Assembly: GCA_950106755.1 (NCBI GenBank) | Contig: OX467082.1 | Span: forward strand, 16,554,001-16,618,000 | DNA: 64,000 bases | From: Climacium dendroides | Taxonomy: Eukaryota > Streptophyta > Bryopsida > Hypnales > Climaciaceae | Direction of reading: 5' to 3' | In this document: positions 24,066-64,000 of the stretch, piece after piece | Position numbering within the stretch: the stretch's first letter is position 1 | Layout: each line of letters starts with the position of its first letter | Notes under the pieces: generated by a model | What the model saw: the letters and a program-made list of their open reading frames with translations, nothing else | Databases searched by the model: none | Told to the model about the DNA's origin: nothing | Translations under genes and position numbers: made by a program

Positions 24066-24780
24066 GGTACCTCTCTGTTTTTCTGGGTTTTTTTTCTCTT
24101 TCTCTCTCCGTGGTCATTTTTTTCTTCCCCCCAACCCAATTCTAGTTCCTTGTGAGAGCGACTAGGCCCGCCGCTTTCCAACCCCTTCCTGCCATCTCCC
24201 CCATCTCCCCCATAAAGAGTGCGAAAATCATACTCCCCTTTCTTCCACAGCACGCAGGCAAAGACCTGAGCAGGGACGACTGCTCAGGAACTCATCATCA
24301 TCATCATTCATCATCTCCTGCACCTTGAAACTGAAACCCAAACTGAAACTGGAACTGGGGCAGCGGAAGAAGAAGGAGGTAAAACTCAGGTTCAGTTGGG
24401 GGTGCGCCTCGCCTGGCCGCACCAGGAGGTGGGGTGGGGGTAACGTAAGGTGTGGTAAAACTGGACGAGATTCACGCTGACCGCTCCCATGGAGGCCGCA
24501 GGGGGTTATTGAAAGCCCCCATAAATGACATCTTCGAAGTGTGACTTACTTTTTACTTGTTCAACTACCATCGTGGCTCGCTCCCATAGTCGAGCTCGCC
24601 CTCATGATGGGAGCCAGCTTGCGAGCCAGCCCCGCTCCTTGTCACCCGTCACTGCTGGTGTCGGACGATCATGCCCCTCTTAAAACTGGTAGCATGCGTC
24701 TGCACAAGGACACCAACTGAACGCAAGCAAAGGAAAAGCGGGGGCGGGGAAAAAGAAGAAGGGAAAAAAAAAGGGTCCAT
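24066..24780. other. GC-richer intergenic block, no gene recognised
   Basis: Base composition rises here and a minus-strand ORF (24,228-24,422) includes an Asp run from ATC/ATG repeats. No domain or clear exon structure is visible. Confidence 0.35.
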
Positions 24781-25140
24781 GGACCAGAAAGAAATCGGCT
24801 GTGTACCCGAAAGAAATGATCCTGACCCGAAAGAAATGATCCTGACCCGAAAGAAATGATCCTGACCCGAAAGAAATGATCCTGACCCGAAAGAAATGAT
24901 CCTGACCCGAAAGAAATGATCCTGACCCGAAAGAAATGATCCTGACCCGAAAGAAATGATCCTGACCCGAAAGAAATGATCCTGACCCGAAAGAAATGAT
25001 CCTGACCCGAAAGAAATGATCCTGACCCGAAAGAAATGATCCTGACCAGAAAGAAATCTGTTGTATGCTAGAAAGAAATGATCCCAACCAGAAAGAAATC
25101 TGTTGTATACCAGGAAAGAGATGGTCCCAACTAGAAAGAA
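24781..25140. repeat. 20-bp minisatellite
   Basis: The unit CCTGACCCGAAAGAAATGAT is repeated ten times without change at 24,821-25,020, flanked on both sides by degenerate units. The array has no stop codon on the minus strand, creating a spurious 160-residue ORF. Confidence 0.97.
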
Positions 25141-41743: not shown

Positions 41744-41747
41744 CCTA
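41744..41747. repeat. Target-site duplication, left copy (CCTA)
   Basis: CCTA directly precedes the left terminal inverted repeat and is repeated at 55,479-55,482 directly after the right one. Confidence 0.85.
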
Positions 41748-41777
41748 GGGTGATTGCAAGAAACACTTGTACTATTT
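41748..41777 (+). repeat. Left terminal inverted repeat
   Basis: 30 bp, exact reverse complement of 55,449-55,478. Weaker similarity continues inward. Confidence 0.95.
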
Positions 41778-41929
41778 GTTGCGTTTTCGGTTTTTGAGGG
41801 TCCTGTACTTCCAGTACTACATGTATTGTGAGTACTACGAAAGGTGCGCAGGATGAATCGTGGGCCGTTGATTTGAATTCCGATCTACGGCTGCAAGTAC
41901 ACGTGGCACCAAACTTTCGAAAGACTGAC

Positions 41930-42287
41930 ATGGCGGGTGGAGGTTGTCAGATGCCTGTCATAATGCCGCTGTCGTGGACTTTACTCTCGCTTCGCCTGAT
42001 TGTGGTGCCAACGTGGAGGTCGGTTGAGTTAGGACTCCACTTCCGCGTGCCGTTGAAGCGAATTCATGGAGCGCTACAAAGGTTGAGTTCTGCCACAACT
42101 TTGTCGGCGATGGCGTGCGCACTCTCTTGCATCGTCAAACTGAGCTCCCATTTGCGACTACTGCTCTTGTTGTCGATTTTTGGATTCTAGACAAATTGAT
42201 TCGAGTGAATTCGGGCGTCACTGGAGTTGCCAACTTCAGTGAAGTGCGCGCTTTGTACTGCACGACAGGGGTGTGGGTTCAGAAGAG
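41930..42287 (+). pseudogene. Coding-like segment at the left end of the transposon
   Basis: One frame reads like protein (CHNAAVVDFTLASPDCGANV ... VEFCHNFVGDGVRTLLHRQ ... FSEVRALYCTTGVWVQKR) and ends at a good donor, AAGAG/GTATGC. It contains one in-frame TGA (42,025-42,027). No family is recognised. It may be a first exon of the SET-protein gene or a separate small gene. The splice phase does not match the ATG exon at 42,999, so the link is unproven. A short AGGGTTT run lies at about 42,578-42,593. Confidence 0.4.
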
Positions 42288-42998
42288 GTATGCCCTGCCA
42301 GCCCCTATCCTCTTCAATTTCGTTGACATTGGTTTAGATGCGTCTTTGTGTGCATAGGCATGACGGACGTACTAGTGCGCCCTTCGTGGTTTGTCACAGG
42401 GAAGCCCGAGCGAAGCTCATGCTACCGTCTTAGGTTTAGGGCTGAATTCTAGTACGACAGGGCTTGCCTCCTCTCAATAGGATGACGGTGTTCCTTCTTG
42501 TTTGCGATTCAGTTCACATGTAGTGATGTAGTGCTGTTTTGGTAATCGCTCTCAGTGAACGGTGGCTTCTGGTGCTAGGGTTTAGGGTTTAGGGTCTGTA
42601 TGCTACCTGTGAGTTTCTTATCGTTGTCCTCAAGTCCTCCACCCACCGTTTCTAGATGTCTGGAATTTGTTCCTGTGTAGATTTTTTGAAGCAGCACATC
42701 GTAAAAGGAGAACGACGACTGCGAATACAACTACTGAACGGGGTGCGTTGTTCTATAAGAATTCCCTTCTTGTCATGGTACTTTATAATGCTTTGTATAT
42801 TTTCTTATATCATGTTCGTTGTCCTTTTCTTTCTTTTTGGTGGATTCCTCATGTTACTGGACTTGTACTCCTCTATTTCTTACACATATGTCACTGGCTT
42901 CACCCTATCTTTAGAATTTGCACAGACAATGTAGACTTTGGTTTCTAATGTTCTGTTCTTGATGTTCATGGCTTGCTTACCTTGCGTAGGACTCTGCA

Positions 42999-45900
42999 AT
43001 GGCGAAGATGAAGACTACTGTCGCTGACGACGACGTAACTGTTACCTATGAGAAGAAAGGCAAGAGAAAAGCTCCGTCGCAAGCACCTACGCTCAGTCCA
43101 GCAAAGGGTAAAGCCACTACGGCAAGTGCATCTCCCGATGGCGCCAGTAAAGTGAAGGGCAAGGGGAAAGCACTCCCTCGAAAGCAGAAGGCCCCACAGG
43201 TTTCTTCTGACTACGACTCCGACGGCAACGGAGATGAAGACTCCGAACAGGAGAGTCCGGACGAAGAGCACCGGAGCCCACGCCCGAAGCAGAAGAAGGT
43301 TGCTTCCTCTACAACGGCTTACGATGAAGTTGAATGCCGGAGACAGCTCAATATGTTGAGCCAGCCCTCCCGGCGTCCTCCCACAGCCATGTCCGAGGAT
43401 ATATTCTACACTTTCTATATTTGACAAGGGATGGGCTGAACCCTCACAGACTGCGCTTGGAGAAGGACGTCCCTAAGAATGACGTGGAGGATATGTTCGG
43501 TGAAGAAAAAGGGCGAAATGGATTCCTCCTTGCGGAGAAACTAACGCCAACTCTTTGGACAGAAGTGGAGTCTTTATACTGCCAAATCTACCAGAGGACG
43601 CAATGCCCTACCCACATCGGCAAGGAAATGGCTATGGGCTGGACTTTGTAGACGAAAGGAAAGAGCATTAATTGGACAGGCTTCGCAGCTGAAACGAATT
43701 TGGGGCAGCGGCAGTCGTATGTTAGACGTGTGAAGACTTGGTTAACACGATTGGTTGAAGCGCAAAATAAGACATTCGAAGAGGTTGCCAAAGCGGAGGT
43801 CATCTCCAAATATTTGGATGTTGCTGACGAAAAGAAGCCGCACATTCAATTGTTCCAGTCCTTTGAGGAGAAGACTGCAACTGTGACCACAGCCGAGCAA
43901 TGCACTCCGGTACTACGTAGCACCTTTCTTACAGATGCACATCGGGCGGAAAGGTGCGTTTCCTTAGTCTTCCACGACTGTCCTACAAGTACTCTATGCA
44001 TGCATTAGGAAGTTTCTGTGTGTGGCTCTTTCATTTCTTCTTCCGCGTGTTGCATAGTGCACTATGTTTCAGTACAACAATGCTGTGATCATTGTACATA
44101 CCTTTCATTTCCAAGTACGTTCAAGCTAGCACATGTAGAACCTTTATGCTGCTTTCTGGCACTTGCACCACTGCAACGTTGTCAAAAGTGAGCATTTGTG
44201 CCTTCATTCAGTACTACCAACTATGGCAAAAAAGTTGACGCAAACGTTGTATAGTCGGCGGACCTCGAGGACTCTGTTTGCATACGTAGAGTACTACTTA
44301 CTTATCCACCTTACCCGGCCAGCTATGCAATCTGCTTAGTGGTTTAGCGTAATACTTGCATGAGAGCTAACACGTACTGCCAACCACGACTCTAACTCTA
44401 ATAAGTACTCCCACTGTCAAGAAGTTCTCGATGACGATATTTCACAGTAGGTAGACCACTACCATATACTACTTTGTTGTCGGAAAAGCTTAGTGGTACT
44501 AGTACTATGGAAGGCAATTCCGTTGTCTGCCACCTTCAGAATTCCCTGTAGGTGCTTAGCTCAATGGCTTAAGAACGTGACGTTGGACTAGTACCAACAC
44601 TGAGTACTACTCCCCCGGAGGCTTCCTCTGGCGTGGGCAACGTACTCCATGCATTCACCTACACTCATACACTGTACTAGAAGGACTAACAAAGCAGTGT
44701 CATAGCCTTCGAAAATACTACTGTACAAGTTCAGTCCCTTCTGTGAGTACTAGGACTTTGTTGTGCATTGTTTTCTCTCTACTTAGTAGTACGACATAGT
44801 CCTCCGCTTCAGGACTACAATTACGGTGAGTGACATAGTACTACTAAGGTGTTCTTCTATATACTTCTTGGACCTTTATTACTAACATGAACCTCCATTT
44901 TTGCAGACTTGTTGTGGTGCAAGAGTTGGTGAATTTGTTGAACGAATCACTCAATAAGTTCGAGGCTGACGCAAAAGACCTCCGAACTAAGGCCGACCTT
45001 GCAGCTGATCAACTTCGTGCGAGTGTCCTCGGAATTCAGCAAGTGCAGGAGACAATGAAAGAGATGGGAGAAGACAGTGGATCGGCCATTTTCAAGAGGT
45101 TATTGGAAGGGCATTCAAAGAAGTACGTGGAGTTGACCACAATAGAGGCTAGCTGCAAGACGGCTCTCGACAACGTCATTGGAAAGATTTTGGGTACCCA
45201 AACACGGCTGACAGCTTTAGAAGAACATTTGCAGGACTTGACGCGTGGAGGGGATGGAGTGCTACTTCGCCCACATCCATTGCTGAATACCACAGAGGCT
45301 CTACCCGGTGCTGTAATGGAAGACATCATGTTACAGTAGCCGCTTTGTGCCGCATGCCAAGAGCCTTTTCCTCATGGAGATGTCGTGCTTTGTAGTTGCA
45401 GGCATACGTATCATCCATGGTGTGCGGCGCAATGGTTTAAAACATCTTCTATGTGCGCTCATTCTCTTTGCAGAGTCGTGAATCCCAAGTGGCTAAGGAG
45501 TTGGGGTTTTCCTGTCAACTTCAGCAATACTGAAGTGCGTGGACATGACGTGGACGGCAACTCCATGAAGAAATTGCCCGCAATTGGAATACGTGGTCAA
45601 CAAACTAGAGGGCCTTCAGCACTCGGTACGTGACATATGTTTTCTTCTCAGTGGATACTTTAGTAACGACTTCTAGTGCTTCAAGGTTTACTGTAGGCCG
45701 CGACGATGTTCCTCACTTCAAGGCCTTGGACTCGAAATTCAGTACTTAGATAGTGAAAGATGTACCTAATCTGAAGTTCTTGACATTACTGCTTCTCCAA
45801 ATTGTGATTCATGCATGTTGTGATCACAAACATAATATACTGTTCTTTGTAAAGGAATGCCGGGGCAACGTCTTGTCTATGAGTTTTTAGTATGCTTTGT

Positions 45901-48900
45901 CATGAAGACGTCCTACTTTCAAGAAGACACTCAGAACAAGTACTGCGGTGTTAATGGACAGGACTATGCTCCCTTGCAGTTGTTGCACCTAGCATGTCAG
46001 CCTCAGATAGCACATTCTCTAAAATCGTCCTGAAGGAAACGAACTACGCTGGCCACGGAGCGGCAAAAGAGTAGGAGGACACATTGCCTACTACTCCGAT
46101 TGCAATCATTCGTAAAGGCGGCGGTAGTTCCAATCCTTTTGATTCCAAGGGCTCCGCCGTCGAAGCTAACGTGAAGGTCGCCTACACAGACACTCCGCAA
46201 TCTGTGCCACCACTACCTGAATCAACGACCAAAAAAGTGGATGCCGACTCAACTGACAAGAAGAGAGGAGCAGAGCCACATCCTCGAAGCACCAAAGAAC
46301 TCGTTTTGGAAAAGAGAGGGACACCACCTGTACCTCTTGCAAATAATGCATCCGTTATGAAGAAGAAAGTCACACTTGTGGAACCTCGCACCAATGAGGT
46401 AGACGTTGTGGACGACTTCTTACAAAACTACAAGAAGACTACAGCACCACTTTCAGACCTTGACAAGCAGCTCATGGAGTTTGATGCGAAAGGAGAGGAC
46501 TTTGATGACATCCTTCCGCAAGCGAGTCCAAGTTCTGCTACGTGCTCTGTACCAGACAAGCCGCCAGAGGTACGTCACTGTGCTGGAGTCAACGGACTTC
46601 GTATTTGCTTTATTCCTTCGTACGCTGCATTAGTATGTCTCCATTTTTCTGTTCAGGTGCTTTGAAGTGTGAGATTTCAAATGCGCTGTGATGTCGTAAA
46701 TGCTCGACATTGTTGTAGACTGAGCGTGTAGAGTCTCAACCAACTGCTACAGTTGAGGATCCTTGGGATATCACGATTCTAAATGCATCAGAGTCGAAGG
46801 AGAATTCTAGCGGGAAGGAAGTCCCTACTGCGCCTGTACGTAGCAACGCAGGGGTGCTCAGAGAAGAAGGGACTGAGTTAGCAGACTCCGCAGCCAGCCT
46901 AGTGAAACGTGGAACAAAACGACCCGCGTGTGGTGTGTAATAGTACCCAGTGTCCGTTGCAGTGGAAGTGTTCCTCTTTCTAGTATTACAATATGTCCTT
47001 GTTTGTCTTACAAGTACTATTTGTGATTCCGCTTAGTACATAGCGTACGCATGAATAGTACTTTAGTCCTCAACAATACACGACGATGATATTGGCAGTT
47101 CTAATCTTTATACGCTTCAGTCCTCCACAGTACGCGACGATGATGACATTAGTCCTAATCTTTGTATGCTTCACGAACGAAAAATAAAGTCCACATAAGG
47201 GTGCACGACGGTCTCTTACTTCATATGTAACTAATGAATGCATACTGTTCTTCAATGTTTTGTATGATTGTATCAGGTAGAGGAGGTAGGTCTGCGTCAG
47301 CAAAGACACGGAATCCTTCGGAACCTAGCAGAAGACAGTTACATTCGAAGACGCCTGCGTCATCAGGAAGTCCTCCATCGACAAGTGCTGTTGGAGCGTG
47401 TAGTCCGGATAAGGTGGGTCACTAGTGAACTTGCAGCGCATGCATCTCCAACTGAGGTTGTACCACATGGAGAAGATGTGCAGGGGGAAACCCTTCGCCA
47501 CTTCTGACAAATCTACTTCTACAGAAGTGCTCCTTTTTTGGATAGTACTGACCTGTGCTACCTGTAGTAAACGCCCGCAAGGGCCTAGTGCCAGCAATAC
47601 ACGGGCTGAGCACAAATGTTGAAGAGGGGTGTTGCAATGCCCTATGCTATGAAGTTCTGAAATTTTCTGTATTTCAACTCATCACAGTATGCAATATACT
47701 ATTTATTGGGCCTACATATCTCTTGTATAATATGTTGCTATCCACAGGGTGCACGTTCAACATTTGTACGTGACTTGTCCGGAGGATTGGAAGCACCTCC
47801 TATTCTATTTCACGATGCTGATGCACACAGTTGCAAGTTACCCATTCATAGTGGCTGCATTTACACACGCAAACATGTTTTGCATGAGTCAGTGAATGTG
47901 GGTGCTCTAGCATCAGCATGCTCTGCTCACATTTGTCCTTTTGTAGCTTCTGAGAGAAAATGCAGTGACATTGAAGGCGCCGTCTACTCCGAAGCCATTC
48001 TAGGGTCAGCTTATATTGGAAACGATACTTTGAGCGACCGAATTCTGGCAGAGGTAAGTAGAGTACCACACTATGTATTCTTACTGTACTTACGCATTTA
48101 CCTTATCCACAGTACTAACGTTTGGTGACCAAGGAAGTGCATGTTTGTTTGCAAAACGACATTTGGTTTAGAGCGTGGCCAAATGACTTGCATGGAGTGC
48201 ATTTGCCACGGCAGTTGAGACGGTCGAGATCACTACGGAACGGAGGCCTCGTCCACTGTGCAGAGCTTCCCTCTTGTCCGGAAAGTGAGGACGGAAAATG
48301 TCGTGGCCATGTTCAAAGACTGTACATCCGGGAGTGCTACGGTGTGTGTGGTTGTAAGCCTCCTTGTCGTAATCGAGTTGTGCAAGGAGGCGTGTAGAAA
48401 CAACTGGAGGTCGGTGGTGTTCCAGTAGCCGCGGCGTTTCCTCATGTTCTAGCTTTGGGTTCATTGCATGAAGCGATTTCTCTCTTGCCGTATTCTTCTC
48501 TGAATCACTTGACGTGGATGTTGCAGTTTCCAGTTCTTGACAGGTTGGCAAACATTGCAGGTATTCCATGCAAGCAATACGAAAGGTTGGGGCATTCGGA
48601 TGTTGGAGAGACTTCACCGGGGATGCTTCGTATTTGAATACGGTGGGGAAATTGTAACCAATGCTGAGTTGTTGAGGCGGGGAACAGGGCAACATTTTGC
48701 TCTAGCTTTGGATGCACATTGGCAGTCAGAGGTCTTTGAAGGAGATGACTCACTACTTTCCATTGACGCATCCAAATATATGAATGTCTCACACTGGTTG
48801 AACCACAGGTGATGTCCTCACTCTCTTCACAGTTCTGTAAAAGTGAGCTTCCCATGCTTTGAAAATGCCAAGTACATGCCCTGACGCGACGGTTGTAGAA

Positions 48901-49795
48901 TTGATGTCTACGCGAGGGCAGATGCGGGGATGCAAATCTGGTGGACATCCCAGTTTTGATTGAACACGATGTTCCGACTTTATACCATGTAAGTAAGCCA
49001 AAAGCGTCCTTGGGAGGAAGAAGTAGACATGGGGAGTGAATGACGGCCTGCACTGCATATTGTATGAAAAAGAAGTATTTCTCATTACTACTAAGGTCTC
49101 GTAGGTGGCTTTCTTTACAAATCGGGAAGTGCGGGTGGGAGAGGAACTCACATGGGATTATGGGTGCACGTTTTATACTGAAAACGGTTTGAGGATGCCA
49201 TTTCCATGCTCCTGTGGCAGCAAGCACTGTAGAGGGGAAAGTGAACAACTTCGATTGCACACATAGAGACCGACTGTACATAGCATTCTAGTACATTGTG
49301 AAGTGTCAGACATGTACTATAGGTTGCTAATTTAGTTATAGTACTCAGTAGATGTACTATCCATAGTACTTTTAGAACTCTTGTGTAGTGCACACTATAC
49401 TATGATAGTATACATTAATACTACGTTAGTACCAATTTATCGCTTATGTATTAAATGTAGTACATCTAGGACATTACCGCAGTGCACATTGCTATACTTT
49501 ACTTTTAATATTTCCTTACAAATACAAGTCAGTATTTTAGAGTACCCCTGTGTCAGTCTCTGTGAGAGGAACATAGGTTTACTTCCTGTGAATATGTAGA
49601 GGTTATGAAAGAAGAAGGGCTACGAGTAGGTAGTCTACCTGTGAGTGTGCCAGATATTTCTGTGAACCTACCGCTAAGATTTGAGGAAGACATTGCATTC
49701 CGTATGTAGAGACGACAGTACCTAAAGGAGATAGTGTGTTTGCCAACGCAGTTGGCAAGGAAGAAGACAAGAGAAAGAGAACATTGCTCTCATGT
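42999..49795 (+). pseudogene. Transposon-borne SUVR1/2/4-like histone H3K9 methyltransferase with Cys/His finger (in-frame TAGs)
   Basis: Exons fit in phase from the second onward: 44,907-45,625, 45,980-46,569, 46,719-46,932, 47,277-47,413, 47,748-48,053, 48,134-48,409, 48,561-48,808, 48,922-48,988 and 49,105-49,240, then a probable tail exon from 49,600. Exon 1 (42,999-43,953) has one frameshift near 43,400. The N-terminus is Lys-rich and disordered. Then comes a coiled-coil-like stretch, a finger (CAAC ... CSCRHTYHPWC ... C ... C, 45,344-45,470), more disorder, and the catalytic part. The pre-SET has IRECYGVCGCKPPCRNRVVQ. The SET has KGWGIRMLERLHRG, VFEYGGEIVTNAELLRR, NHRCGDANLVDIPV and VGEELTWDYG; the post-SET is CSCGSKHCRG. 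NHRC..DANL is typical of plant SUVR1/2/4. In-frame TAGs lie at 43,649, 45,337, 46,072, 48,395 and probably 49,707. Marked as a pseudogene because of these, but they may be read through. Confidence 0.8.
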
Positions 49796-49832
49796 AAGGT
49801 ACTGTGTTGTACATCATGCCATTTTTTGTAAC

Positions 49833-52800
49833 TCAGAGATTCATCTCTTCCAATGCAGTGTTGATAACGTCTACTGTTTCCTCTGCCATGCTATATACAA
49901 CTTCTCCGCCTTTCACTTTGTATTGTCTAGGGATCATTTGAAATTTGCAAGCAAGTACAAAATTAGCATCAAAGAAAGCCTCCCTTGAATTACGGAGGAA
50001 TACATAGTTGCTGCTATCTTGGCATCCCCATTTTTGATAGTACTTTCCAGAAATGACAGAGTCGCCTGCTTCAAATTGCCCTCCCCAGATGCATTGAAAG
50101 TCCCCTTCAACAATGTGCTTTGGCTGTTGACATTGTAAAACGTAGAAGGAGACACCTTCGTCATTGTCTTCCTCGGCTGGCACAGCAAAGTTATCTCCAG
50201 GTTGCACTAGGTCCCCCATGCATTCACCATCTAGCTCGTAATCCCAGGTGTCCTCTTCATCCTCCTCAGCAAGCTGGGCAACAGCGAAGGAGACATTTCG
50301 TGGCTGAATCTTCGTGACAGTCCACGGATCAACATATTTTTTCTTCTCACAGTGAACGAAGTTTCCCTCCACGCACGGGCCACAGAAGCACGAAAGATGT
50401 CTGAGGAACAATTTGGTTGGGTCATGCTTATCGGGGGCATAAATGGAGTGCAGTTTTGAAGAACCTAGAATACGATCGCAACTTTGAGTATTCACGCGGT
50501 CAACATCTTGCGCTCCGATGTGATGGAAATACCTGTATGACCTGCATCCACTTCCTCAGATGTTGTTAGCGCGTACACCAGCGGTATACACGACGAATTC
50601 TATCCCTTTGTGGTTTCTGCAAATGAGAGAGGATGTAGTACTATGACAGACGTCGGACACTATATAGTACCTCAAGAGTGATGTAGTACCAAGAAAAGAT
50701 ACTAATTGCTGCTTTGACGAACCTGAGCATTGTCCCTAGTACTCATTTCATTACAATACCCAAGTATAGTGGTACATTCAAGAGAACCATACGTGGAATT
50801 TGGCAGGACAACAAATGACGCATACAGTGTGGAAGGAACCTTGTGTCACCACGTAGATTAGGAACCTATCCGGCCATAGTAGCATCTAGGAAGAGAACAC
50901 AATCTGCTGCATTCTAGAGTTGTCGGTGAGGATTCAGGAGCTGCTCATTCCGAAGAGCCCTTTTCACAACTGCTCCGGCCCCATCCCATTCACCCTTTCC
51001 ATGGCCTGTGCCATAGTAGTTCCAATGCATTGTGCATCCGCCAGTGAAGGCCGGGTATCTGTGGCATTCTATGACGACTTTGTCATGTTCATGAAAAAGT
51101 CATCCACTTAAACAGAAAGCCATGCATTTCAAATGATTGGCCGTTGCCATACCTAACGACTGTCTACAGTGAAGCAGTCGAAGCACAGTACTACCTAATA
51201 CAATGTGTAATACAACAGGGTACACAGTAGTACAGCTGCAAGTATAATGGATGACTTCGACCAAAGTTTAGAAGACAGTGACCTGGCAACGAAGTACATG
51301 GCCTTTGCACTTTTGAATTGCGCAGCACAACCGTCACTGAATACATAATGAGTGTTTGGAGAAGATCCCTTTGACTGCATCCACCTCCAGTGCAGGAGTA
51401 GGCAATGTTGGGCGAAAGCACTGTCATGCATCTTATCATCGGAGATGTAGTAGTGCGTCTCCCTGACCAACTGCATTTCTTCCTCCAAAGCACCCTCCGA
51501 AACCAGAATGGAGTACGTCACCTGAACCAAGATTGACACTTGGTCAGAATGGTAATACATAGACTGGATCTCATTTTGGATTTCGAATGTGTAGTTTTCC
51601 GCAAAATCAATGTGCGTCAGAATTGCCCCGGTCTGCAAGGAAGCCTTCAGTATTTTTGCCTCGGCAGTTTGCCACTTCGCAATGAAATTGTGCCGTATAA
51701 AGTGTTGTACAGTCGGCACAAAGAATTCAAGGAACTCACGGAATGAAGATGACATGTGAACCTCCTTAATGTGGTTCTTTGGTTGTCCATCCGCAGATCG
51801 GCCGACCACTTCGTACTGGAATTGCTTCCAGTGAATTGTCCGTGTAGCATCTACCACCCTTTCTCGAGGACAGATGTTGAAGAATTTAGCGCCACAATGA
51901 CTACAACATCCAAGCAAGCACTTCTTGTTATGGAATTCCTCATCCTCTGGCTTCGGACATAGTAGACTTTCCCAAAGGACCGTCACACCAACATATCGAC
52001 TTCTGCCAACATTGTAGAGGCCTTCATCATCTCTGTCGCACACAATGCAAGTGCAATTGCAGAGGAAAATTACATGTGCCCCTTTCCGGGGGTCTCGGAA
52101 GGCATTCAGAGCCTCCAACAAGTACAACACTTGGATGTGGTACCGGCAACAACAGACATTCCGGTCTTTGCACTTGATAACAAAGAAAGGGCGCAAGTAG
52201 ATGAAGGAGCGCTGTTGGATGGAGCACTGTGGATGTGCTTCTATAAAGCGTGTATACAACTCCATCTGCAAGTACTCCAACACAGTAGTCAGGAAAAGTT
52301 TAGAGAACATGCATATATATCAGAAGGAAAGCACACAGCAATGTGCGTCTGATGTATGCTGACATACTGTAGAAAATGAGGTGTATGTGAAGAGGTACTT
52401 GATGTACAAGTATGTACAAGAATAAGTACAAATTAGTACTATACAGTATTAGAGGTCAGGGTGCTGTGAAGTGTGTGTGTCAGTAAATTCTTGAAGTATT
52501 CCTAAGTACTACAAAGAACACTCTGTAATACTGAAAGGACTGACCTCAGTACTAAGACTTTCTCTGACTGTAACCATAGCATGCCAGAGACTTCTTCAAA
52601 GAGTCGTTGAATATGGGCTTAGTACTATATTAGACGTCGCACTGGTACCATGCGGATTGCAAGGGTGAAGCTGACGACAAAGGAGAACTACAACATAGCA
52701 TGCTAGTATAGACTTAGTACTACAGACAATGTAACTGTACTCTACTGAATTCGCGTCATACAAGGCATTGCTCTCTCGGTACTCACTAGTACGAAGTGAG

Positions 52801-54535
52801 GACTGTGAAGTTCTATATGGGTCCAGATAGAACATAGTGGACTACAAGGAAGTTGTAGGGGACTTAAGCCCATGAGCGCTAGTGACACGCTAGTAATTTC
52901 AAAATGAACCCAAGGTATGATCTTAGTGTAGCAGAGGACTGTACAGGAGGATCCGACAGAAGTAGGAGCTCGAAGTACTGCATAAGTATCCATGTAGTGC
53001 TCATTGATACTACATAGGTCTCATGTTTGCATGGGGAAGCACTAGCAACGAATGCATAGTACAATGTCTGAAGCAATAGTGTTCTACCTGTCGAAGAAGA
53101 AGATTCTGAATATGTCATGTCGAAAGCAAAGACATACCACAAGTGCAGGGAGGGCGTAGTGGACATCCTATTGAGTACTATAGAGGCATATCCGTAAGCG
53201 TGGACGACGGGGCAGCGGAGGCCTTAGCCATGTCCACGTATTGCGATACATAGATCACTGCAATGTAGGCAGTTCACTACAATGTAAAATGCACTTCAAA
53301 TGTGTGGAGAATGTGGACGTACTATAGCAGTACCCGAAGTCCTACAATGTGTCCAAGAAGGACTAATGGAATGCAATGCATTCCATCTGAAAATCCTTGT
53401 ATATAATATGAATCGTAGTAGGACTCCTCCAGACATGCGAGAAGTCACTTCTAGTATTATCATGACAGAAGCAGCAGTCATGTGACGCAACAAATATTTT
53501 TTTCAGGGAAGAGAATACCAAACCGCTCTATTTTGCAAAGAAAAAACATCACGCACTTGCTAACAATGAGCACGAATGGTCTCTATTGGCTAGCAATGTC
53601 AGCTGTACATGCTCCTACTCTGTTTACTATGTCGTATGAAGTGAAGACCTTTACTGCAGAGGAATCCTGAAAGCGTGCATGACTTTTCCAAAGAACCCTT
53701 GTCCTCAAGCAATGAAGGTTTGAACAAACAAAGATTGTACAAAAAAAATCGAAGCCATGATTGGAAATTAGGGAGGCCGTACCTGACTCTCCATTAGAAG
53801 ATGCGTTGCATGAGTGTCATATGCATTCCGTCCCAAGCGTTTGCGTCGCACATCCCGTCTCCTGGGACTCACTTGCGTCTCCTGTGTCCACCACTGCAAG
53901 ACCATTTGCTTGACCTCATTGCGGATTCCACCTTCCCTTGTCTTTCGAGCTGGAACTGCAAAACGTGAGGAAGTTTCTGTTGTAGCTGATCGTAGTCTCT
54001 CTACAGCAGCTACCAAATTCTCCTTTCTTGTACCGAGTATGCTATGGAACTTTGAGATGTCAGAATCTAATTCACTCACCACTGCCTCCAAGATTGCCCT
54101 CTTGCGAGCTAGCATACCCAAAGAATGAGGAATTTTCATGGCCACCAAGTCCGACTTAATATTTAGCAGAATCTGTCGTTGGACCTTTGCTTCTTCAGGA
54201 GTAGGGTAATAACTAGGGAGGAACGGTCGAATGGTACGACTATTGAAAACCTTTTCCAAAACAGCAACTCTGAAATTGGAATCCCCAATACGCTGTAGCA
54301 ATCGTGAAAGGGAATTCGTGAGGCGACTCGCACTCCTCCAAATACTAGTCCGGTGCCTTCTGCATCCCCATCGTAGATCTAGTGCAGAATTGGCTTCCAC
54401 ACCTGCCGCGACTGCGTCCTCGGCAATGCTCCGTTGGCTGCGACTACGGCGTTGACGATCCCTCCATTGTTGTCGCTGATTCAGTACCGCAGCATCCTCC
54501 GCCCGCCGCCGCGTTCGTGGCCCCGGCCGCGTCAT
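49833..54535 (-). CDS. DDE-like transposase of the 13.7-kb element, 884 codons, two in-frame TAGs
   Basis: Four exons join to exactly 885 codons: 53,783-54,535, 51,283-52,265, 50,840-51,058 and 49,833-50,532. Exon 1 is Arg-rich and ends with WWTQETQVSPRRRDVRRKRL ... THLLMESQ. Exon 2 has a Cys-rich block (RNVCCCRYH; CPKPEDEEFHNKKCLLGCC, then SHCGAKFFNIC) and the core HIDFAENYTFEIQNEIQS (about residue 471) and THYVFSDGCAAQFKSAK (about 563). Exon 3 supplies YYGTGHGKGEWDGAGAVVKR, and the last exon a Cys motif (LSCFCGPCVEGNFVHCEKK) and a C-terminal domain. This DFAEN / SDGxxxQ / GHGKG-DG-G-KR signature is one I recall from uncharacterised transposase-like proteins of animals and plants; the superfamily is not named here. 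In-frame TAG at 50,914-50,916 and 50,866-50,868. The 5' end may extend upstream of 54,535. Confidence 0.8.
53300..53745 (+). other. Plus-strand ORFs inside the transposase intron
   Basis: Opposite to the 1.5-kb first intron of the transposase gene, a plus-strand ORF starts MCGECGRTIAVPEVLQCVQE and runs to 53,485. A pyrimidine-rich acceptor (ATTTTTTTCAG) follows at about 53,506. Beyond it one frame reads like protein (EHEWSLLASNVSCTCSYSVY ... ILKACMTFPKNPCPQ), broken by one TGA. It could be a third small gene of the transposon or chance; no family recognised. Confidence 0.3.
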
Positions 54536-55448
54536 CCACTCATCTGTCGGAATACTTCAAAGGCAACATTGCAGTAGCCCCCGATCCTAAAACGGGTTCT
54601 CATCACTCCTGCCCCTATCTTCTTCCATGCAGCATTGGATTTTTGTGTACTGCCTTCCAAATCCAACATCGTAGTTCTACTGCTCATTCCGTGCACTAAC
54701 TTTCCCTGCAGAAACGTCACTGTTCTTCTTCGGAACTCCGGAACAAGAGAAGGTGGCGGCGTTCATTGTTCCCGATGCATAGACGCCAGAGAAGGCAATT
54801 TTGAAGTCTCCATAAAAGCAAACCGCAGGGGCGGATGAAGAGGTAGTTGGACAAGCAGTCCACTGTGGCAATGGCGTGGGCCCCCCCTAAGACTATGCAG
54901 TACTATTTGTCTATGTTGGAATACTACAGGGAGCCAGAACTTCAGAAAATTGCTAGAAAATGGAAGTTTTTTATTTCTATTTTTTATAATTATAGGAGGT
55001 CCTTAAAAAATTAATATAAAAAGTGGCCATTTTTCCCAACCCTCTGAAGTCACTGGAAGTGCAAAAACCAATTCATAATATTAATTTCTATGAGTGGAAA
55101 TTACCTACAAATGTAGCTCTGTTCTAGCCAATGTATAAGCCCATGAAATGAGCCAATCACAAATCCCTCTCCTGGAAAGTTGTATTTCCATAACAAGAAG
55201 GAGCCCACAAAGTCTGACACCCTAACTCTTCAGAAAAGGTACTCAAAAGTACTAAAAACCCCTAAAACTATTTATGTGACATTTGCTTAAAATTCAAAAA
55301 GCCATCCGTAATCATTTTTGAAAATTTTCAAAAAATTCCAGTACATGAGTTGATGATGGAAGATCACTCACCCCAAATTTCAAGTTGATCCCATCTTTTC
55401 TCCAATACTTATGGCATCAAACAACTTCCGCACGCAACGGGTGACGAA
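54536..55448. other. Right subterminal region of the transposon
   Basis: It holds possible 5' exons or the promoter of the transposase gene (minus-strand ORF-like sequence 54,640-54,870, with Cys and Ser-rich segments). AT-rich non-coding sequence then runs up to the right terminal repeat. Confidence 0.4.
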
Positions 55449-55482
55449 AAATAGTACAAGTGTTTCTTGCAATCACCCCCTA
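55449..55482 (-). repeat. Right terminal inverted repeat and CCTA target duplication
   Basis: 55,449-55,478 is the exact inverse of 41,748-41,777, followed by CCTA (55,479-55,482), the partner of 41,744-41,747. Confidence 0.95.
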
Positions 55483-55936: not shown

Positions 55937-57097
55937 CCATGGCCTCAACCACAAGAGCCAACAATAACAAAAGAGCAAGGAAGGATCGTGGTCCTAATTG
56001 GCTGCAAAATGAAATTTTGCACTGATAGCTGCTAAACGAGAGATGTTTTTGGAAGAGATGGATGCAGTGGATGGACGCAACTTGATGACTCCTGACAATA
56101 CAAAGTGGTCGCGGATTTCACATGAGGTCATGCGCACTGGGTTCTCACCTTGCTTACGTAATGGGCTGGCTTGCAAGACTAAGTGGAACCAAATCCTCCC
56201 TAACTACAAAGGATTTCTGACTACCTTGGTCGCACTGGAAGGAATGTCCCCGACTATTGGGAGTTATCTGCAGCTGAACGTAAAGAGGAAGGCTTGCCAA
56301 AACATTTCCCCCAAGACATTTATGCTACTATAGATGATTGGTATGGCAATCGGCCACAAATCCAACCACCTCATGTGAGGGACTTGCTTGCACCAAACGA
56401 TAACAACTATAGACCACAAGAGGTACAACAACAAATGCAAGATGATGACACCAATGACCACGACATGGACGACCTGATGGACCTGGCAGCAACAAAGGTA
56501 GTCCACAGAACAACAGGTGAGAGCACGCAGCAAACCACTCCTCCTCGCTCCCCGACAACCTCGTCATCCACGCCCGGCCCTGCACTTCGACCATTGCCGT
56601 CAATAGGGACTCCACTGTCTAAAGTATGACCTGCATGCCCACCAGGTATTACTCCACAAATTAATAGTTCATTAGATACATCTTCTTATTCTCTGAGAAG
56701 GCGTCTAGGGAACACAACAGCAAAAAGAAAAACAGTTTCAGGGCATACTGTAATTGCGGAGGCCACGAAGTCGAGTGGAGCACTTATGGCAAAGCACATG
56801 CAAGACATTGCAGAGTCCAATCAAGCCTTGGAGCGTTCCAAGATTGATGTGCAACTCCAATTTTTTATTGAGTAGATGGCTTACCAGCGTGAAAAAGATA
56901 GACGACTATATGAAAATGCAGTGCAAGCCAACGAGAATGCACGGTTGTCAATTATGAAACAAGGTGACATTGTCAACTATCTTTTCCATCTATCTATTGT
57001 CATAGGCAACTATCTTTCCCATCTATCTACTGTCATAGGCAAAAGCTTGATGAGAAGCAACAACCCCGACATACAAACCCCACTAGCACAAACATGA
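55937..57097 (+). pseudogene. PIF/Harbinger MYB/SANT (trihelix)-like protein, copy 1, frameshifted
   Basis: From ATG 55,937 the protein begins MASTTRANNNKRARKDRGPNW, then the helix-turn-helix region (FLEEMDAVDGRN; KWSRISHEVMRTGF; CKTKWNQILPNYK). Two single-base losses, near 56,020 and 56,208, shift the frame. The third segment (RNVPDYWELSAAERKEEGLP ... IDDWYGNRPQ) continues through a disordered linker to a C-terminal coiled coil. That segment has TGA at about 56,627 and TAG at 56,873-56,875, with coding on both sides. Harbinger elements encode such a DNA-binding partner, which takes the transposase to the nucleus and the ends. It converges with the transposase at 57,706-58,887. Non-functional as it stands. 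Confidence 0.75.
56972..57041 (+). repeat. 33-bp in-frame duplication
   Basis: CAACTATCTTTTCCATCTAT and CAACTATCTTTCCCATCTAT start two adjacent 33-bp units at the end of the MYB-like ORF, doubling an 11-residue segment (NYLFHLSIVIG). Confidence 0.8.
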
Positions 57098-57705: not shown

Positions 57706-58887
57706 CTACATCTCATCTCCAACATCTACACCGTCTGAAACATCGAATACAATTGGAACATCATCCACCACTTCTCTATGCAGTCCCTCATCTCGAAGTA
57801 TTTGGAAGAAGTTCTCAACCTCGTCTTAAGACTGCCCCAATAGCATGTTGTGTAAGATAGCACAACAGAAGATCACATCCAGTAGAAACGCAACATCCAA
57901 ATCAAATTTAGTCAAGAGCTCTCTGAAGGTCTACTTTAAGATCCCGAATGTATTTTTCACAACACATCGACCCTTTTGTAGCTTCTTATTAAAGAGAGCT
58001 TCTGCCACTAAAAGTCGAACGTGACTGCAATGAAGAACCATTAGCCAAGGAAGTAGTGGATACCCTAGGTCACCAATTAGGTAAGGATTGAAACCTTGGA
58101 CACCTTGTTGATCATCAAACAAATGGTTGTGCATTGCCAAGTCATACAGTGAAGAACGCCTGAGCACCCTTGAGTCATTAGTTGACCTTGGCATTCCAAG
58201 ATACAAATCTAAGAATCTTTTTTCACTATCCACAACTTCTTGGCAGTTCAAGGTATAGCCTCCAGACTTAAAATAAAAGTAGTCAGCTGGAACATGGCGA
58301 GGTTTTGAAATCGACACATGTGTACCATCAATGGCTCCAACTATAGCAGGGAGACCACAGAGATTGGCAAATTTTTTCTGTATGAGTTTCAAGCAATCAC
58401 CCGTAGGCCAAATTATATTGTGCCTCAATGTGTCATTCACTGCATGCACAACATCTCTAAGAATTGAGCACACAACGCTTTTTTCAATTGCGAACATTTT
58501 TGAGCAAATGAAAAGAGAAGCTCCATGGGTCAATTTAAAGAGGGTGCAAGCTACATGGATAACCACTGGAATTGCTACATGATACTTTGTGTTTTTCTTG
58601 CGCACTTGTGGAGCTAGCAAATCAGCTAAGGCAAAAACCGAGCCTTTTGTCATTCGAAACATTTCTAGCCACCACTTGTTATCATACTCAACCATGAGGA
58701 ATCGAAAAAACCATGTGGTAGATCGGGGTTTAACCCAAAATCCAAGGTTGTCGGGGAGCACATACAGGGAAGTGGGGAAGTAGAGATTTAACAAAGAAGA
58801 GCTGACAACCGTCAATGGATCCTCCACAGGTTGCCCTAGAGCTTGGACAATTTCAGTGAAGGCGTCCATCGAATTTTCTTCTTCCAT
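57706..58887 (-). pseudogene. PIF/Harbinger DDE_4 transposase, copy 1, catalytic Glu replaced
   Basis: The ATG at 58,887 (MEEENSMDAF) opens an ORF with the helix-turn-helix region and DDE_4 core: VGAIDGTHVSISKPRHVP (first Asp), DLYLGMPRSTNDSRVLRR (second Asp) and FNPYLIGDLGYPLLPW. The final motif is GRCVVKNTFGILK, where the family has Glu (VxE). The codon is AAA at 57,955-57,957, so the catalytic triad is broken. TAG at 57,931-57,933 follows, then recognisable C-terminal coding (TFRELLTKFDLDVAF, CCAILHNMLLGQS) with TAA at 57,826-57,828 and TAG at 57,706-57,708. An upstream in-frame ATG exists. The element ends were not found. Confidence 0.85.
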
Positions 58888-60860
58888 AGCAGAAGCAGGT
58901 AAGTAATCAACATGCAGTGTAGTAAGGATTTGAAGAAGTATCCAAGCACTAAACATCAAAGAAGAGTGCGCATCAAAAGCATTGTCTATGGCAACGTAAT
59001 TGGTATAATGACCGAGTCTTCCCAACTGCCACTGAAGGGAAAACAAACAAGAACAAGTTATTTCCAGGAAAACATTTTAAGCAAGCGGGCGCTTCCATCA
59101 AATACCACAACATACCCTAATTTGATTGCACAAAGACAACATCGTTGACATTCTTCCAAAAAAAATTGAGTGCAATTCAAGAACCACAAAAAATGGGAAA
59201 CAATTCGAACTCCAACAGCCAGCAATGAGATACAACCCTAACCTTACTGAACGAGGCGGGAAAACCGTCAAAGCAGAGATCTTCTTCTCTTGAAGTGGAC
59301 ATCAGAACAATGTGCCAAAACTACAACTCCAACATGTACAAGTCAGATTCCAAAGAGTTCCTAAAGCAGAAGTTTCCGCTCTTGAATTCCTTGAGTCTTC
59401 ACATTGCGCTCCACGATGAAGACATAGCCAGTATCCAATAAATTGAAGAAGGTGGAGAAGAAGGAACCCAAAATGAAGGTGAGACTAACAACACTAAAAA
59501 CCTTCAAACTACAATCTCTTTCAGAGGAAGTGAAGTCCAACAAAAGGCGACGCTGAAGCAAAGTGGAGCAGACGACAAGGCATGAAGGTAAGTTTCCCAA
59601 AAGACTATTTGATGTGAACCCCTCTCCTGTTAACGATCAGAAGTGCCTAGCTGGCACTTTTACTAGTGCGCCCAAAATTTAAAACAGAAGTAAGTGAGAA
59701 CTCCCCGACTTTAAGGTACATAACAAAACTCCGATAATTATGTGAACGCAAAAAAAGGCTTTAAGCCCAATTTTCCTTGCTACAGTGTTCACTCCTAAAT
59801 TTAAAAACCGGTCCTCCATAAGGCCAGGTGAGAACCGAGCTTTAATGCCCTAAGATTTACTAACCCCTTAGCGCTTGAATTTTTTCTTGATCATTACCAT
59901 ATTTTTACTAATTAGAAACAAAACATTTATGGTTTCTCATTTGTTTATAAATTTTCTTGGGAATTACATTGCGCTTTCTTTGTTCATCCATCTTAAGGTT
60001 GAATTTCATTCCCCAAAGCTTCCTATTTTGTTTGGACATTATATATTGAGAGATGAATATTGAACTTCTCAATATCAATTTTTAGTTCAGTTCTACATTA
60101 ACCATTCTAGACCTTTTTATACAGACAATCTGAAGAGTACGGTGACTTTAAAGACTCTTTACATTGCAATCAAAAGGTGAGCCATGCTATAGAGGCAGAG
60201 TCTTTAGAGTATTACATCTTGTTCACTACTAAGAACATCTCCACTAGGCTGCACTATCCACTCAAAAGATGCATGTAGCATTGCCTTGCCACCTCCCTTC
60301 AACTCAAAAAATCCCTCGGTGTCAATCTTTATTAGAAAAAATTGGACCACCCTCTAATACCATTGATCTTGATTTCATATAAAAAAACAATCGTTGTTGA
60401 TCACATCGCACTCAGAGACAATCTCAATTGTTGAAAAGATTATAGTTTAGGGTTTGTTGGCACCTAACTTTTTTTTGTTGTCACATTGAGTTTGTTGTAA
60501 GTTGATTTGTTGCATGTCAACTGCTTGTGATTGTGCTAACGTCTCAGTATTTAGGAGGATGATGGCAAAGAGCAAGGTACACTTGAAGCAATTACTATTT
60601 CTCCCTATTAAATGTTTGCTTAATTTCTTGCATTGATTTTTTCATCTATTATAAAGTGTCGAGTTTGTTGTTACAAAGGATTTGAAGACTTTTCCTTACT
60701 ATTTTGTTCTAGTTATGTCTTCACAAACACACTATGTTGTAGGTCAAGAAAAATGGCAAGCTCATGTCCTTGAAATGAAATTTGATACTAAAAAATATTT
60801 TATTTTCTTATTAAAGAATTGAGGTTGTATATACTTAGGTTAAGAAATGGCTTTATCTTC
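58888..60860. other. Downstream flank of Harbinger copy 1; no gene seen
   Basis: It probably includes the right end of the Harbinger element, but I could not find matching inverted ends. From about 59,870 it is AT-rich intergenic DNA with short chance ORFs. Confidence 0.4.
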
Positions 60861-60861
60861 A

Positions 60862-61160
60862 TCACAAAGTTTAGACCTTACGGTTTGTCAATAGTTATCA
60901 TGTGGTTATCATTGTTTCATGAGTTCGCACGTTAATTACAATTTATTGCATCATTATGATGTATTACTTTGCATTGTTATAATGCAATTGCAAGTAATGC
61001 ATTGTAACGATGCGATAATGATGCATTACTTGCAATTGCATTGTAACGATGCGAAGTAATGCATTGTAATGATGCGATAAATTGTAATTAATGTGTGAAT
61101 CCATGAAACAATGATAACCACATAATAATTGTTGACAAACTATAGGGTCTAAACTTTGTA
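60862..61160. repeat. Large hairpin (foldback) element with internal repeats
   Basis: About 300 bp that pairs with itself. ACAAAGTTTAGACC ... TGTGGTTATCATTGTTTCAT on the left is matched by ATGAAACAATGATAACCACA ... GGGTCTAAACTTTGT on the right. The centre holds repeated, alternately inverted ATGCATTAC/GCATTGTAACGATGCG units. Probably a foldback or MITE element. Confidence 0.85.
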
Positions 61161-62231
61161 ATGTTTTCTTTGAAATGAAATTGCTATAAAAGAATATTAT
61201 GCCTTTTTACTATAGAATTTAGTTTGATCCTTCCACATACAAGAAAAAGATTGTCTCTGGTTCTATATAGGGTTTCCCTAAGAGTTTATCTAACATATGT
61301 TTTTTTAATTGGAATTGCAATGAACGATCAAATGAAATTAGACCTAGACTTTCAATTTTTGAATTGTTGTCACAAGGTCAAGGATTTTAACGTAGTGGAG
61401 AGGAAAGAATTAGGTTTAGTACCACAAGCACAAGAGCTTACATAAAAGAGGATTAGGCAAAGTTCTTTCACTTGGAGGCTTTGAATAAAGAAGAGCTAAA
61501 AGAGTACTGAATAAGGATCTTGTTTGGCTATGGGTTTTTAAATCATGGCATAGGCTTGTGCATTCCTATTCCATAATTTCCTTAGGGTTTTGTTTGACAT
61601 GCGATATGTTTTGTTTGACTTCTTTCATTCAGTGAAAATACTTGTGATCAATCCCTGTATGATCCCCTAACTTTCAACTACCATTCTATATAGTCAAATC
61701 TTGTAGATGACAAAGTTTTGTGCTATCAAATGGACAAATGTCTTCCACGTTTGTTTCGTCATAAGGTTTTCTACGACATTCACTAGTGGTACGGTGGAAG
61801 ATCCAGCATGAGACTGCCACACATACGAGACCTTCTTTCCAACGAAGATGGTAACTTCTAAACACAAGCCATTGATGTTGAAGACATAGAGTATGATGTC
61901 ATAAACAACCACGATAGTGAAGATGCCATGCACGTCGCTTCCAACACTAAAGATAGTATGCAGAATACCTCCAACATACCAATAGCTCTAGCGACCATCG
62001 AACCTCCAACGCCATTTTTCCCGTCTCTATGCTCAGCCAACCTTGTGAAGAACAATCTACAAATGTCACTAATAACTTGTTGACTCGGACATGCAACCCC
62101 AGTCCTCGCCAATTAACTTCTCTACTTGCAAGTGTAACGGTATAAGTTCTTAGTTCGAGTGATACAGCTCACGATGGGCTGGTCCGTCAACTTGGAAGTA
62201 CATGTGTTTGACGCAAAATTTAAGTGGACAC
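61161..62231. other. No intact gene seen
   Basis: AT-rich to 61,700, then more balanced composition, possibly eroded 5' part of the second Harbinger element. No recognisable motif. Confidence 0.4.
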
Positions 62232-62594: not shown

Positions 62595-63114
62595 AAAATC
62601 CCCAACCATGCAGTTCATCATCACGGTGTCACAGATAGAAAAACACCACCTTCAATTTAGCCGTCCCGATACTAATGTTACAACTGTACATTAGACACAA
62701 AGACGTTTTTCAATATTTTTGCACTGTAGATATTTGTTTCTTTTGCTTGTGGCATTTACCCCAAAAAAATTAGTCTACACTGACAAGCTGTTGCTATCAA
62801 TGTGTGTGTCAATTTGTAGCACTCAATGCTAATTTCCATTTCGTTAAAAAAATTGCTCTAACAAAATGGCATCTTGTATTACACCCCAACATAATATAAC
62901 CTAACACAAAAACATAATAGTAATGACTAAAAACAAGCCATGCATTCATAATTTCACCATGAAGTCTTGGAACTCAATGATGGTGGTCACGGCATACCTC
63001 AAACAAGAAGACCTCACTGCATGGCTAAGTGGAGACCAAAATCACGGCGCTTCTAGACTCCCAACGAACTAGTTGTATCACCACCAATATTTTTCAGCAC
63101 TTCTCAAACACCAA
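62595..63114. other. Short region between the two decayed Harbinger genes
   Basis: No gene seen. AT-rich. Confidence 0.4.
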
Positions 63115-63600
63115 CTTCTTCCAACACGATACTATAGTTTTCCCTCTATAGAACCTGATAAAGGCGCTCAACATCACCGTTAGATTGATAGAGAAGCAAA
63201 TTGTACAAAATACCACAACACATAATGACATCAGGAAGGAAAGTGACATGTAAGTTAGATTTAACAAGCAATTTGCGGAAAGTCTGTTTAAACAATGCAA
63301 ATACACTCTCCATAATGCCTCTCCCTTGTCATTGTTTTTTATTGAATAATGACTCAACAATGGACATATGATCATGATCAGGATGGGTGAGTAGGGTGTG
63401 AAGCCAGAGAAAGTTTGCATTGGATTCCATAGAATTCTTGCACAAGTTTTATTGTACAAATTTGACCTACACAAAACACGTGCATCATTTGTGGAGCCCA
63501 TCATTCTAAGAAACAAGTCAAGAAACCTCTTCCGACTGTCTACTACAGCTTGACAATTGAGTGCACTTGTCGTTCCAATGATAGAAGCCCTAATCTCACG
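63115..63600 (-). pseudogene. Harbinger DDE_4 transposase, copy 2, C-terminal fragment
   Basis: ALNCQAVVDSRKRFLDLFLR and MGSTNDARVLCRSNLYN correspond to the second-Asp block. After at least one frameshift, GRGIMESVFALFKQTFRKLL matches the third catalytic block and keeps its Glu (codon 63,308-63,310). The next part (CCGILYNLLLYQSNGDVE) matches the C-terminus of copy 1. The N-terminal half is lost or unrecognisable beyond 63,600. Confidence 0.75.
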
Positions 63601-64000
63601 CCTACTTCAAAGGAACCCTGCCACAAAATACTTGAGCGTGAAGTATTTCATAAAACAAAGTCTGTCAAGAGGACATGCTAGGATTGTGCAGGAAAGTAGC
63701 AAACGCGAATGACTTCATAGATTTCTTATGCAACTAGACTACTATTGAAAAAGACAACGTTCACTACAACCCACTTGCAATGTGTCTGCACCTATGAAAT
63801 ATAAATACGTTGTTTTTAGATACATCTATTACCTCGTACTACCTAGAATTAGCAAGATATACATATTACGTGTGAATGCTTCACTGACCTATGGCCACGC
63901 TATCAGAATTTAAATGCAGATAGTTGGTCCACATTCAAAAACTTGATTTTTGAAGAGGCCCGTCCTCTATCCATTGCTCTTATCCTCCTACGCCAAAACT
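63601..64000. other. No gene seen at the window end
   Basis: Possibly the eroded 5' part of the second Harbinger transposase. No motif can be recognised. Confidence 0.3.

Follow-up and report, generated by a model that had tools for sequence, protein, structure and literature searches.

The DNA examined here is a stretch of 64,000 nucleotides from the moss Climacium dendroides (assembly GCA_950106755.1, contig OX467082.1, positions 16,554,001 to 16,618,000 of the forward strand), hereafter the window, in whose own numbering coordinates are given. Positions 41,748 to 55,478 of the window are a full-length, inactive copy of an autonomous-type cut-and-paste transposon of about 13.7 kb in a land plant. 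Two convergent, spliced genes fall entirely within its terminal inverted repeats (TIRs), as the original prediction had proposed and the exon models bear out: gene A, on the plus strand, whose predicted product has a RING finger joined through a long linker to a SET domain of H3K9 type, with methyltransferase and ligase activities that are presumed from the sequence; and gene B, on the minus strand, which on sequence and structure prediction is a DDD transposase. That this is a two-gene transposon whose RING-SET gene was kept by selection is held with high confidence. The features of the element are the following.

41,744-41,747, unstranded: left target-site duplication CCTA, read directly
41,748-41,777, plus strand: left TIR of 30 bp, including GTACTA; other copies have an identical end
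42,999-43,953, plus strand: gene A exon 1, with a 1-nt frameshift near 43,421 and TAG at 43,649 in the window copy
43,954-44,906, plus strand: gene A intron 1, with 16 AGTAC/GTACT sites
44,907-45,625, plus strand: gene A exon 2, coiled-coil-like part and RING-H2 finger (zf-RING_2), with TAG at 45,337
45,980-46,569, plus strand: gene A exon 3, with TAG at 46,072
46,719-46,932, plus strand: gene A exon 4 (exon model)
47,277-47,413, plus strand: gene A exon 5 (exon model)
47,748-48,053, plus strand: gene A exon 6, aligning with proteins P0107 and P0108 in the region that precedes their SET domain
48,134-48,409, plus strand: gene A exon 7, pre-SET-like end RECYGVCGCKPPCRNRVVQGG, with TAG at 48,395
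48,561-48,808, plus strand: gene A exon 8, first part of the SET domain (Pfam and solved-structure matches)
48,922-48,988, plus strand: gene A exon 9, SET core NHRC/DANLVDIPV (exon model, copies)
49,105-49,266, plus strand: gene A exon 10, SET motif ELTWDYG, post-SET cysteines and stop (exon model, copies)
49,270-49,829, unstranded: stretch between the convergent genes, with 10 motif sites in 560 bp
49,833-50,554, minus strand: gene B exon 4, C-terminal part (exon model, copies)
50,853-51,058, minus strand: gene B exon 3, predicted third catalytic Asp, GHGKGEWDG, with TAG at 50,914 and 50,866
51,283-52,265, minus strand: gene B exon 2, Cys/His-rich, predicted first two catalytic Asp (DFAENY, SDG; alignment of relatives)
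52,266-53,782, minus strand: gene B intron 1, with 16 motif sites
53,783-54,535, minus strand: gene B exon 1, basic N-terminal part (exon model)
55,449-55,478, minus strand: right TIR of 30 bp, reverse complement of the left TIR
55,479-55,482, unstranded: right target-site duplication CCTA, read directly

The two 30-bp ends, claimed beforehand to be exact reverse complements, were confirmed as such by an inverted-repeat listing, where they form the sole fully complementary pair among the eight inverted pairs of at least 18 nt listed between 40,000 and 57,500; the CCTA bordering the element on both sides was likewise confirmed. The host genome (412.6 Mb in 123 contigs) was queried with the first 453 bp of the element, and 40 of 256 candidates were scored. 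At least 57 matches were found, including at least 18 places, the window among them, where the left end is matched over at least 299 bases at 85-100% identity, and at least 19 places that match the first 40 bp only, many of them with an inverted match of 30-34 bp about 0.7 kb away. Fifteen distinct copies were compiled, namely the window and 14 others from the genome; a sixteenth, on contig C36, was left out as a duplicate of the copy at C35:25.97 Mb. This locus, L055 (G000 C36, 46,575 bp), repeats L056 (C35:25.97 Mb) in its flank too, and C36 is probably a duplicate contig of the assembly. Eight of the 15 copies have both ends in the extracted stretch, the other seven showing no right end within it. 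The eight measure 12.3-14.8 kb, and seven of them, the window copy included, have exact 4-bp duplications (CCTA, CACG, ATAT, AAGT, AGAA, TATT and ATGT); the eighth is flanked by CATA and ATAG, with no exact duplication. Copies of the interior with differing ends, which would have spoken against a transposon, were not seen, all eight ending alike. The call of a complete DNA transposon is thus upheld by independent copies that have the same ends and different 4-bp duplications. A chance inverted repeat around two host genes, for which only the splicing of both genes could be adduced, is refuted by the at least 18 places that match the left end over 299 bases or more and by the common ends with differing duplications, and its probability is practically nil. 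The size of 13.7 kb was also borne out; the accompanying statement that it is far larger than typical for plant cut-and-paste transposons needs softening, since passages of PMC10741241 give complete plant CACTA elements as usually above 10 kb and some Sola elements as above 15 kb.

It had further been stated that finding the TIR pair unrelated to the two genes would count against the element. The surroundings of the 19 40-bp matches and of a single 73% match were extracted, and 17 of these 20 stretches have both TIRs 733-737 bp apart without the two genes. These 17 small relatives are mutually 95-98% alike and carry exact 4-bp duplications in 14 cases, a one-base mismatch in two and a two-base mismatch in one. 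The pair therefore does exist without the genes, but the two small elements that were aligned, L031 and L032, match the big element over their first 40 bp, at 86% over their last 77 bp and at 94% over a piece of 33-34 bp from the right subterminal region. Because of these shared right-end parts, the elements of about 735 bp are read from their sequence as putative non-autonomous relatives of the big element, most likely moved in trans by its transposase. The small family is represented by loci L031-L048 of genome G000, and the 19 listed short matches are all on contigs C1, C2 and C3, a distribution that may reflect only the subset of candidates scored.

The assignment of gene B as a transposase relies on a predicted catalytic triad and on modelling. 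Its three Asp residues are invariant across 49 relatives, the E of KGEWDG being variable, and the predicted structure of one relative, P0001, is integrase-like with an RNase H-like core. A relative of gene B exists in the moss Ceratodon. Relatives from a starfish, a butterfly, a beetle, a hydrozoan and thrips (P0057, P0082, P0084, P0089 and P0095) bear database names such as uncharacterised or unnamed, 'Cc8L18.2-like' and 'ARL14 effector', and may belong, unrecognised, to this family of transposases. A search for relatives in IMG/VR gave 46 stretches fitting a pattern, none of which was confirmed. The original prediction had pointed to the 4-bp duplications of Sola elements while making no such assignment, and this hint agrees with each of the features compared. 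The element probably belongs to the Sola superfamily, a placement made from the published description, because its target-site duplication, triad, size and TIRs fit the account in passages of PMC10741241, which gives Sola TIRs of 11-1124 bp and sizes mostly of 2-9 kb, with some above 15 kb. The likeness to Sola, as far as the excerpted texts of PMC10741241, PMC3627910 and PMC9033089 describe it, thus extends over a DDD transposase, 4-bp duplications, TIR and size in the stated ranges and an occurrence in a moss, Sola1 having been recorded for Physcomitrella (PMC9033089); those same excerpts name Fanzor1 as the second gene in Sola2 of amoebae and, unlike what is seen here, make no mention of a SET or RING gene. 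Another superfamily, or an unnamed one, is a minority possibility of some weight: neither Pfam nor NCBIfam names a transposase family for the element proteins and the fit to Sola is by description, against which stand the match in duplication length, triad, size and TIR length (PMC10741241, in part) and the two moss occurrences, Sola1 in Physcomitrella (PMC9033089, in part) and the gene B relative in Ceratodon. Two named superfamilies were rejected. PIF-Harbinger, with HarbingerS, was discarded because gene B has no DDE_Tnp_4 Pfam match and the duplications are of 4 bp, not 3 bp; the feature of a SET-domain gene within the element, known from HarbingerS, is present here. Mutator, with VANDAL, was discarded because of its duplications of 7-12 bp as against 4 bp, and because no MULE family figures among the Pfam matches of gene B; the VANDAL feature of a short motif accumulated in non-coding DNA is present here too.

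Gene A comprises ten exons between 42,999 and 49,266 with matching phases, modelled from the sequence and the copies, and encodes about 1,220 residues. Splice dinucleotides at the tested junctions are retained in most copies, the changes being AG to AA or GT to AT, plus one gap (the tabulation across copies set aside the sides at 48,409, 50,853 and 50,554). RING and SET are the only Pfam domains that pass the cut-off. The zf-RING_2 match was obtained on the open reading frame (ORF) at 45,340-45,633 with 28.1 bits, the cut-off being 27.3, and a longer piece scored 23.7, under the cut-off. The SET region extends over exons 6-10, with the SET domain proper in exons 8-10 (Pfam 4.8e-12), and both features by which a SET domain was judged, NHxC and ELxxDY, are present. 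Its best match among solved structures is EHMT2, followed by SUV39H2, and with these SUV39/EHMT H3K9 methyltransferases it has in common NHRC, ELTWDYG and the post-SET cysteines. P0107 and P0108, both metagenome proteins, share with gene A 45-48% identity over 38-39% of the query as well as the signature NHRC.DANLVDIPV, by which we take the SET domain to be SUVR-like. Pre-SET (PF05033) is matched in P0107 and P0108 and not in the window protein, whose pre-SET end nevertheless aligns to both. This missing Pfam match, together with the position of the SET domain behind a RING half, sets the protein apart from SUV39/EHMT enzymes, as does one substitution: in QHFALALDA (about 48,714-48,722), the Y of YLFDLD in EHMT2 is replaced by F in all ten copies that cover the place. 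That Y is presumably an active-site residue, and its replacement may alter or abolish SET activity.

In the window copy, the reading frame of gene A is broken by four stops and a frameshift, that of gene B by two stops. Each of these six stops is a TAG, and CAG is the commonest codon at each place in the 13 copies compared, by which a recoding of UAG as a sense codon is ruled out; at the frameshift, 43,419-43,421, all ten other copies examined there have one more base. In the main subfamily (11 copies), 1,491 of 1,896 private changes (79%) are C-to-T, affecting 3.8% of CHG, 3.7% of CG and 1.7% of CHH positions. As this footprint is that expected of plant-type CG and CHG methylation, the copies appear to have been silenced once and then to have decayed, and their decay records CG and CHG methylation. 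Divergence of exons and introns is similar among the eight full copies, so that a plain contrast between the two is uninformative on selection.

Past selection was therefore sought in another contrast, by Fisher test, between changes present in at least two of the 15 copies (shared), which should mostly date from the time when the element multiplied, and private changes; C-to-T changes were excluded because deamination makes them recur. In gene A, the shared changes comprise 39 non-synonymous and 37 synonymous ones (ratio 0.32), the private changes 157 and 36 (ratio 1.32; p 1.5e-6); the corresponding values for gene B are 14 to 20 (0.20) and 71 to 27 (0.74; p 0.0017), and for the SET part 6 to 8 and 48 to 14 (p 0.019). 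A count on 13 copies agrees with that on 15. Purifying selection thus acted earlier on both genes. A further count had to be dropped, the copy that it used at C36:41,756 lying at the contig end that duplicates the C35:25.97 Mb locus; in it, differences of gene A fixed between the subfamilies were 16 non-synonymous to 6 synonymous, unconstrained, one side being the duplicated locus. These results bear on the view that gene A is a passively captured host gene, a Pack-type cargo of no use to the element. Pieces of host genes are frequent in plant Mutator and CACTA elements (PMC10741241, in part), gene A has introns and a SET domain of the kind that plants use, and every copy observed is decayed. 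The constraint on its shared changes, in the gene as a whole and in the SET part, and the presence of gene A sequence in both subfamilies speak against such a capture, which we regard as improbable; gene A was constrained as a whole, and dead cargo is an unlikely description of it.

The non-coding DNA of the element is filled with a short motif. With both orientations counted, AGTAC has a density of 14.4 per kb in the non-coding part, 1.6 in the exons and 1.1 in 50 kb of flanks, and the enriched 6-mers of the element are headed by AGTACT, GTACTA and TAGTAC. The motif is found 107 times in the non-coding DNA, as against a mean of 22.9 and a maximum of 36 in 200 dinucleotide-preserving shuffles. 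When each site is counted once, the element holds 85, of which 76 are non-coding, and the 50.3 kb of flanks hold 48, the non-coding density of AGTAC/TAGTACTA sites being about 11 times that of the flanks. Sites per kb amount to 10.7 and 10.6 in the introns of genes A and B, to 17.9 in the stretch that separates the two and to 8.0 and 6.4 at the ends of the element, as against 0.55 and 2.65 in the exons of genes A and B (exon bounds slightly shorter than the final ones were used for the motif counts). The majority sequence of 11 copies has 94 sites, 84 of them non-coding, more than the window, from which it follows that decay removes sites. Around the sites, bases outside the TAGTACTA palindrome are near random, so that most sites were not spread by duplication. 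The motif seems also to have been retained: relative to two copies of the second subfamily, 75 of 102 motif 5-mers were kept as against 476 of 764 control words of the same composition (p 0.016), and 35 of 44 as against 240 of 375 (p 0.027), the p values being one-sided and the two comparisons not independent. The small element L032 has five internal sites in addition to those in its TIRs, and three of these lie in sequence that it does not share with the big element, a modest excess.

Subterminal binding sites are known from other DNA transposons. It is quite conceivable, if short of an even chance, that the AGTAC/TAGTACTA sites are bound by the transposase or act as enhancers, unrelated to gene A; GTACTA lies inside the TIR itself, and the internal sites of the small relative, three of them beyond the shared parts, would agree with it. 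The filling of introns and of the intergenic stretch across 13.7 kb, which goes beyond the subterminal range, argues against it. YAGTATTAY, the VANC21 motif, is close to TAGTACTA. That string occurs eight times in the available text of PMC5735166, according to which the second protein of VANDAL elements, VANC, binds a short motif in introns, intergenic and terminal parts and strips methylation from the element. VANDAL and the moss element alike encode a second protein and have a short motif that has built up in their non-coding DNA, within introns, between genes and at the ends. The VANDAL motifs, by the same text, have spread via tandem repeats, whereas here the flanks of the sites are random and the sites do not form tandem repeats; unlike VANDAL, the moss element has a gene with RING and SET, and its duplications are of 4 bp as against the 7-12 bp of Mutator (PMC10741241, in part).

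The most likely role of the gene A protein would be on the chromatin of the element itself. In the mechanism proposed, the gene B transposase would take the 30-bp TIRs as its substrate and integrate the element through a 4-bp stagger. A DNA-binding part of either the gene A protein or the transposase would recognise the AGTAC/TAGTACTA sites scattered over the element, and there the SET and RING activities would alter host silencing or stop it from acting, a role that an unrelated protein, VANC, has in VANDAL elements. That the effect is anti-silencing is suggested by this analogy, and is a possibility that we favour without confidence. More tentatively still, the element may be a Sola-like plant transposon with a chromatin module of its own, in which a RING-SET protein is guided to the element and its small relatives by some 80 sites of TAGTACTA type, most of which arose separately, in the introns and between the genes. 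It would then be a system against silencing that has an origin independent of VANC and works through a histone-modifying enzyme.

Several results weigh against the overall reading of the element. No result here connects the SET protein to the motif, and conservation of 6-mers relative to the second subfamily is non-significant (p 0.079 and 0.135). The RING half of gene A gave no homologue at E 1e-3 among the 7,992 top word-sharing candidates; the RING exon alone does not reach significance in the selection test (p 0.19), nor do two of the three segments of gene B, and no contrast is left among C-to-T changes (p 0.77 and 0.49). Foldseek with the whole model against PDB and viral models returned only poor matches and no usable whole-chain match, and all extracted copies that span both genes are broken, any current activity being hypothetical. 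The protein might conversely be self-limiting, helping to put H3K9-type marks on its own copies and thereby controlling copy number. Self-regulation is known for some transposons, the closest solved relatives of the SET domain deposit H3K9 methylation, and the decay of the copies bears a strong CHG methylation footprint; that footprint is explained by host silencing alone, and a change by which an element mutes itself is seldom favoured, so this alternative is judged unlikely.

Returning to the counter-silencing proposal, its parts have precedents. SET genes are named in HarbingerS and MuDR elements of Phytophthora (PMC12730594), which likewise are DNA transposons bearing a SET histone methyltransferase gene; they differ in their oomycete hosts and in superfamily, the moss element having no Pfam transposase match and 4-bp duplications, and their description, in the part of that source drawn upon, mentions neither a RING fusion nor a motif array. 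According to the same partial source, fungal DNA transposons encode TET/JBP dioxygenases proposed to aid escape from silencing, another case of a DNA transposon carrying a chromatin- or DNA-modifying enzyme, with a different enzyme, other hosts and other transposase families, among which Sola is not named in that part (PMC12730594). Searches of the open-access PMC literature yielded no description of a plant transposon with this RING-SET combination; known parts thus occur here in a combination and a host for which no account was found, and the element apparently adds a plant example of SET capture, in a further superfamily. Few systems are known by which transposons themselves counter silencing, and the excerpted PMC5735166 leaves open how VANC takes silent marks away. 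If the proposal is true, the pairing of a histone-methyltransferase-like protein with a motif array over non-coding DNA would make a transposon's own chromatin marking directly testable.

Other features surround the element in the window. To its right are a Harbinger-type nuclease (DDE_Tnp_4) at 57,934-59,076 on the minus strand, a Myb/SANT-like ORF at 56,013-56,333 on the plus strand and a second, partial nuclease ORF at 63,097-63,606 on the minus strand, the last two being under the Pfam cut-off. A host gene at 28,891-33,969 on the plus strand has a VARLMGL motif and DUF4378, which we take to be the LONGIFOLIA/TRM combination known from land plants. A tandem array at 24,745-25,104, with a 20-bp period, has three minus-strand frames open throughout, and an inverted repeat at 60,860-61,163, with arms of 143 bp that are 87% complementary and a spacer of 18 bp, is possibly another small foldback element.

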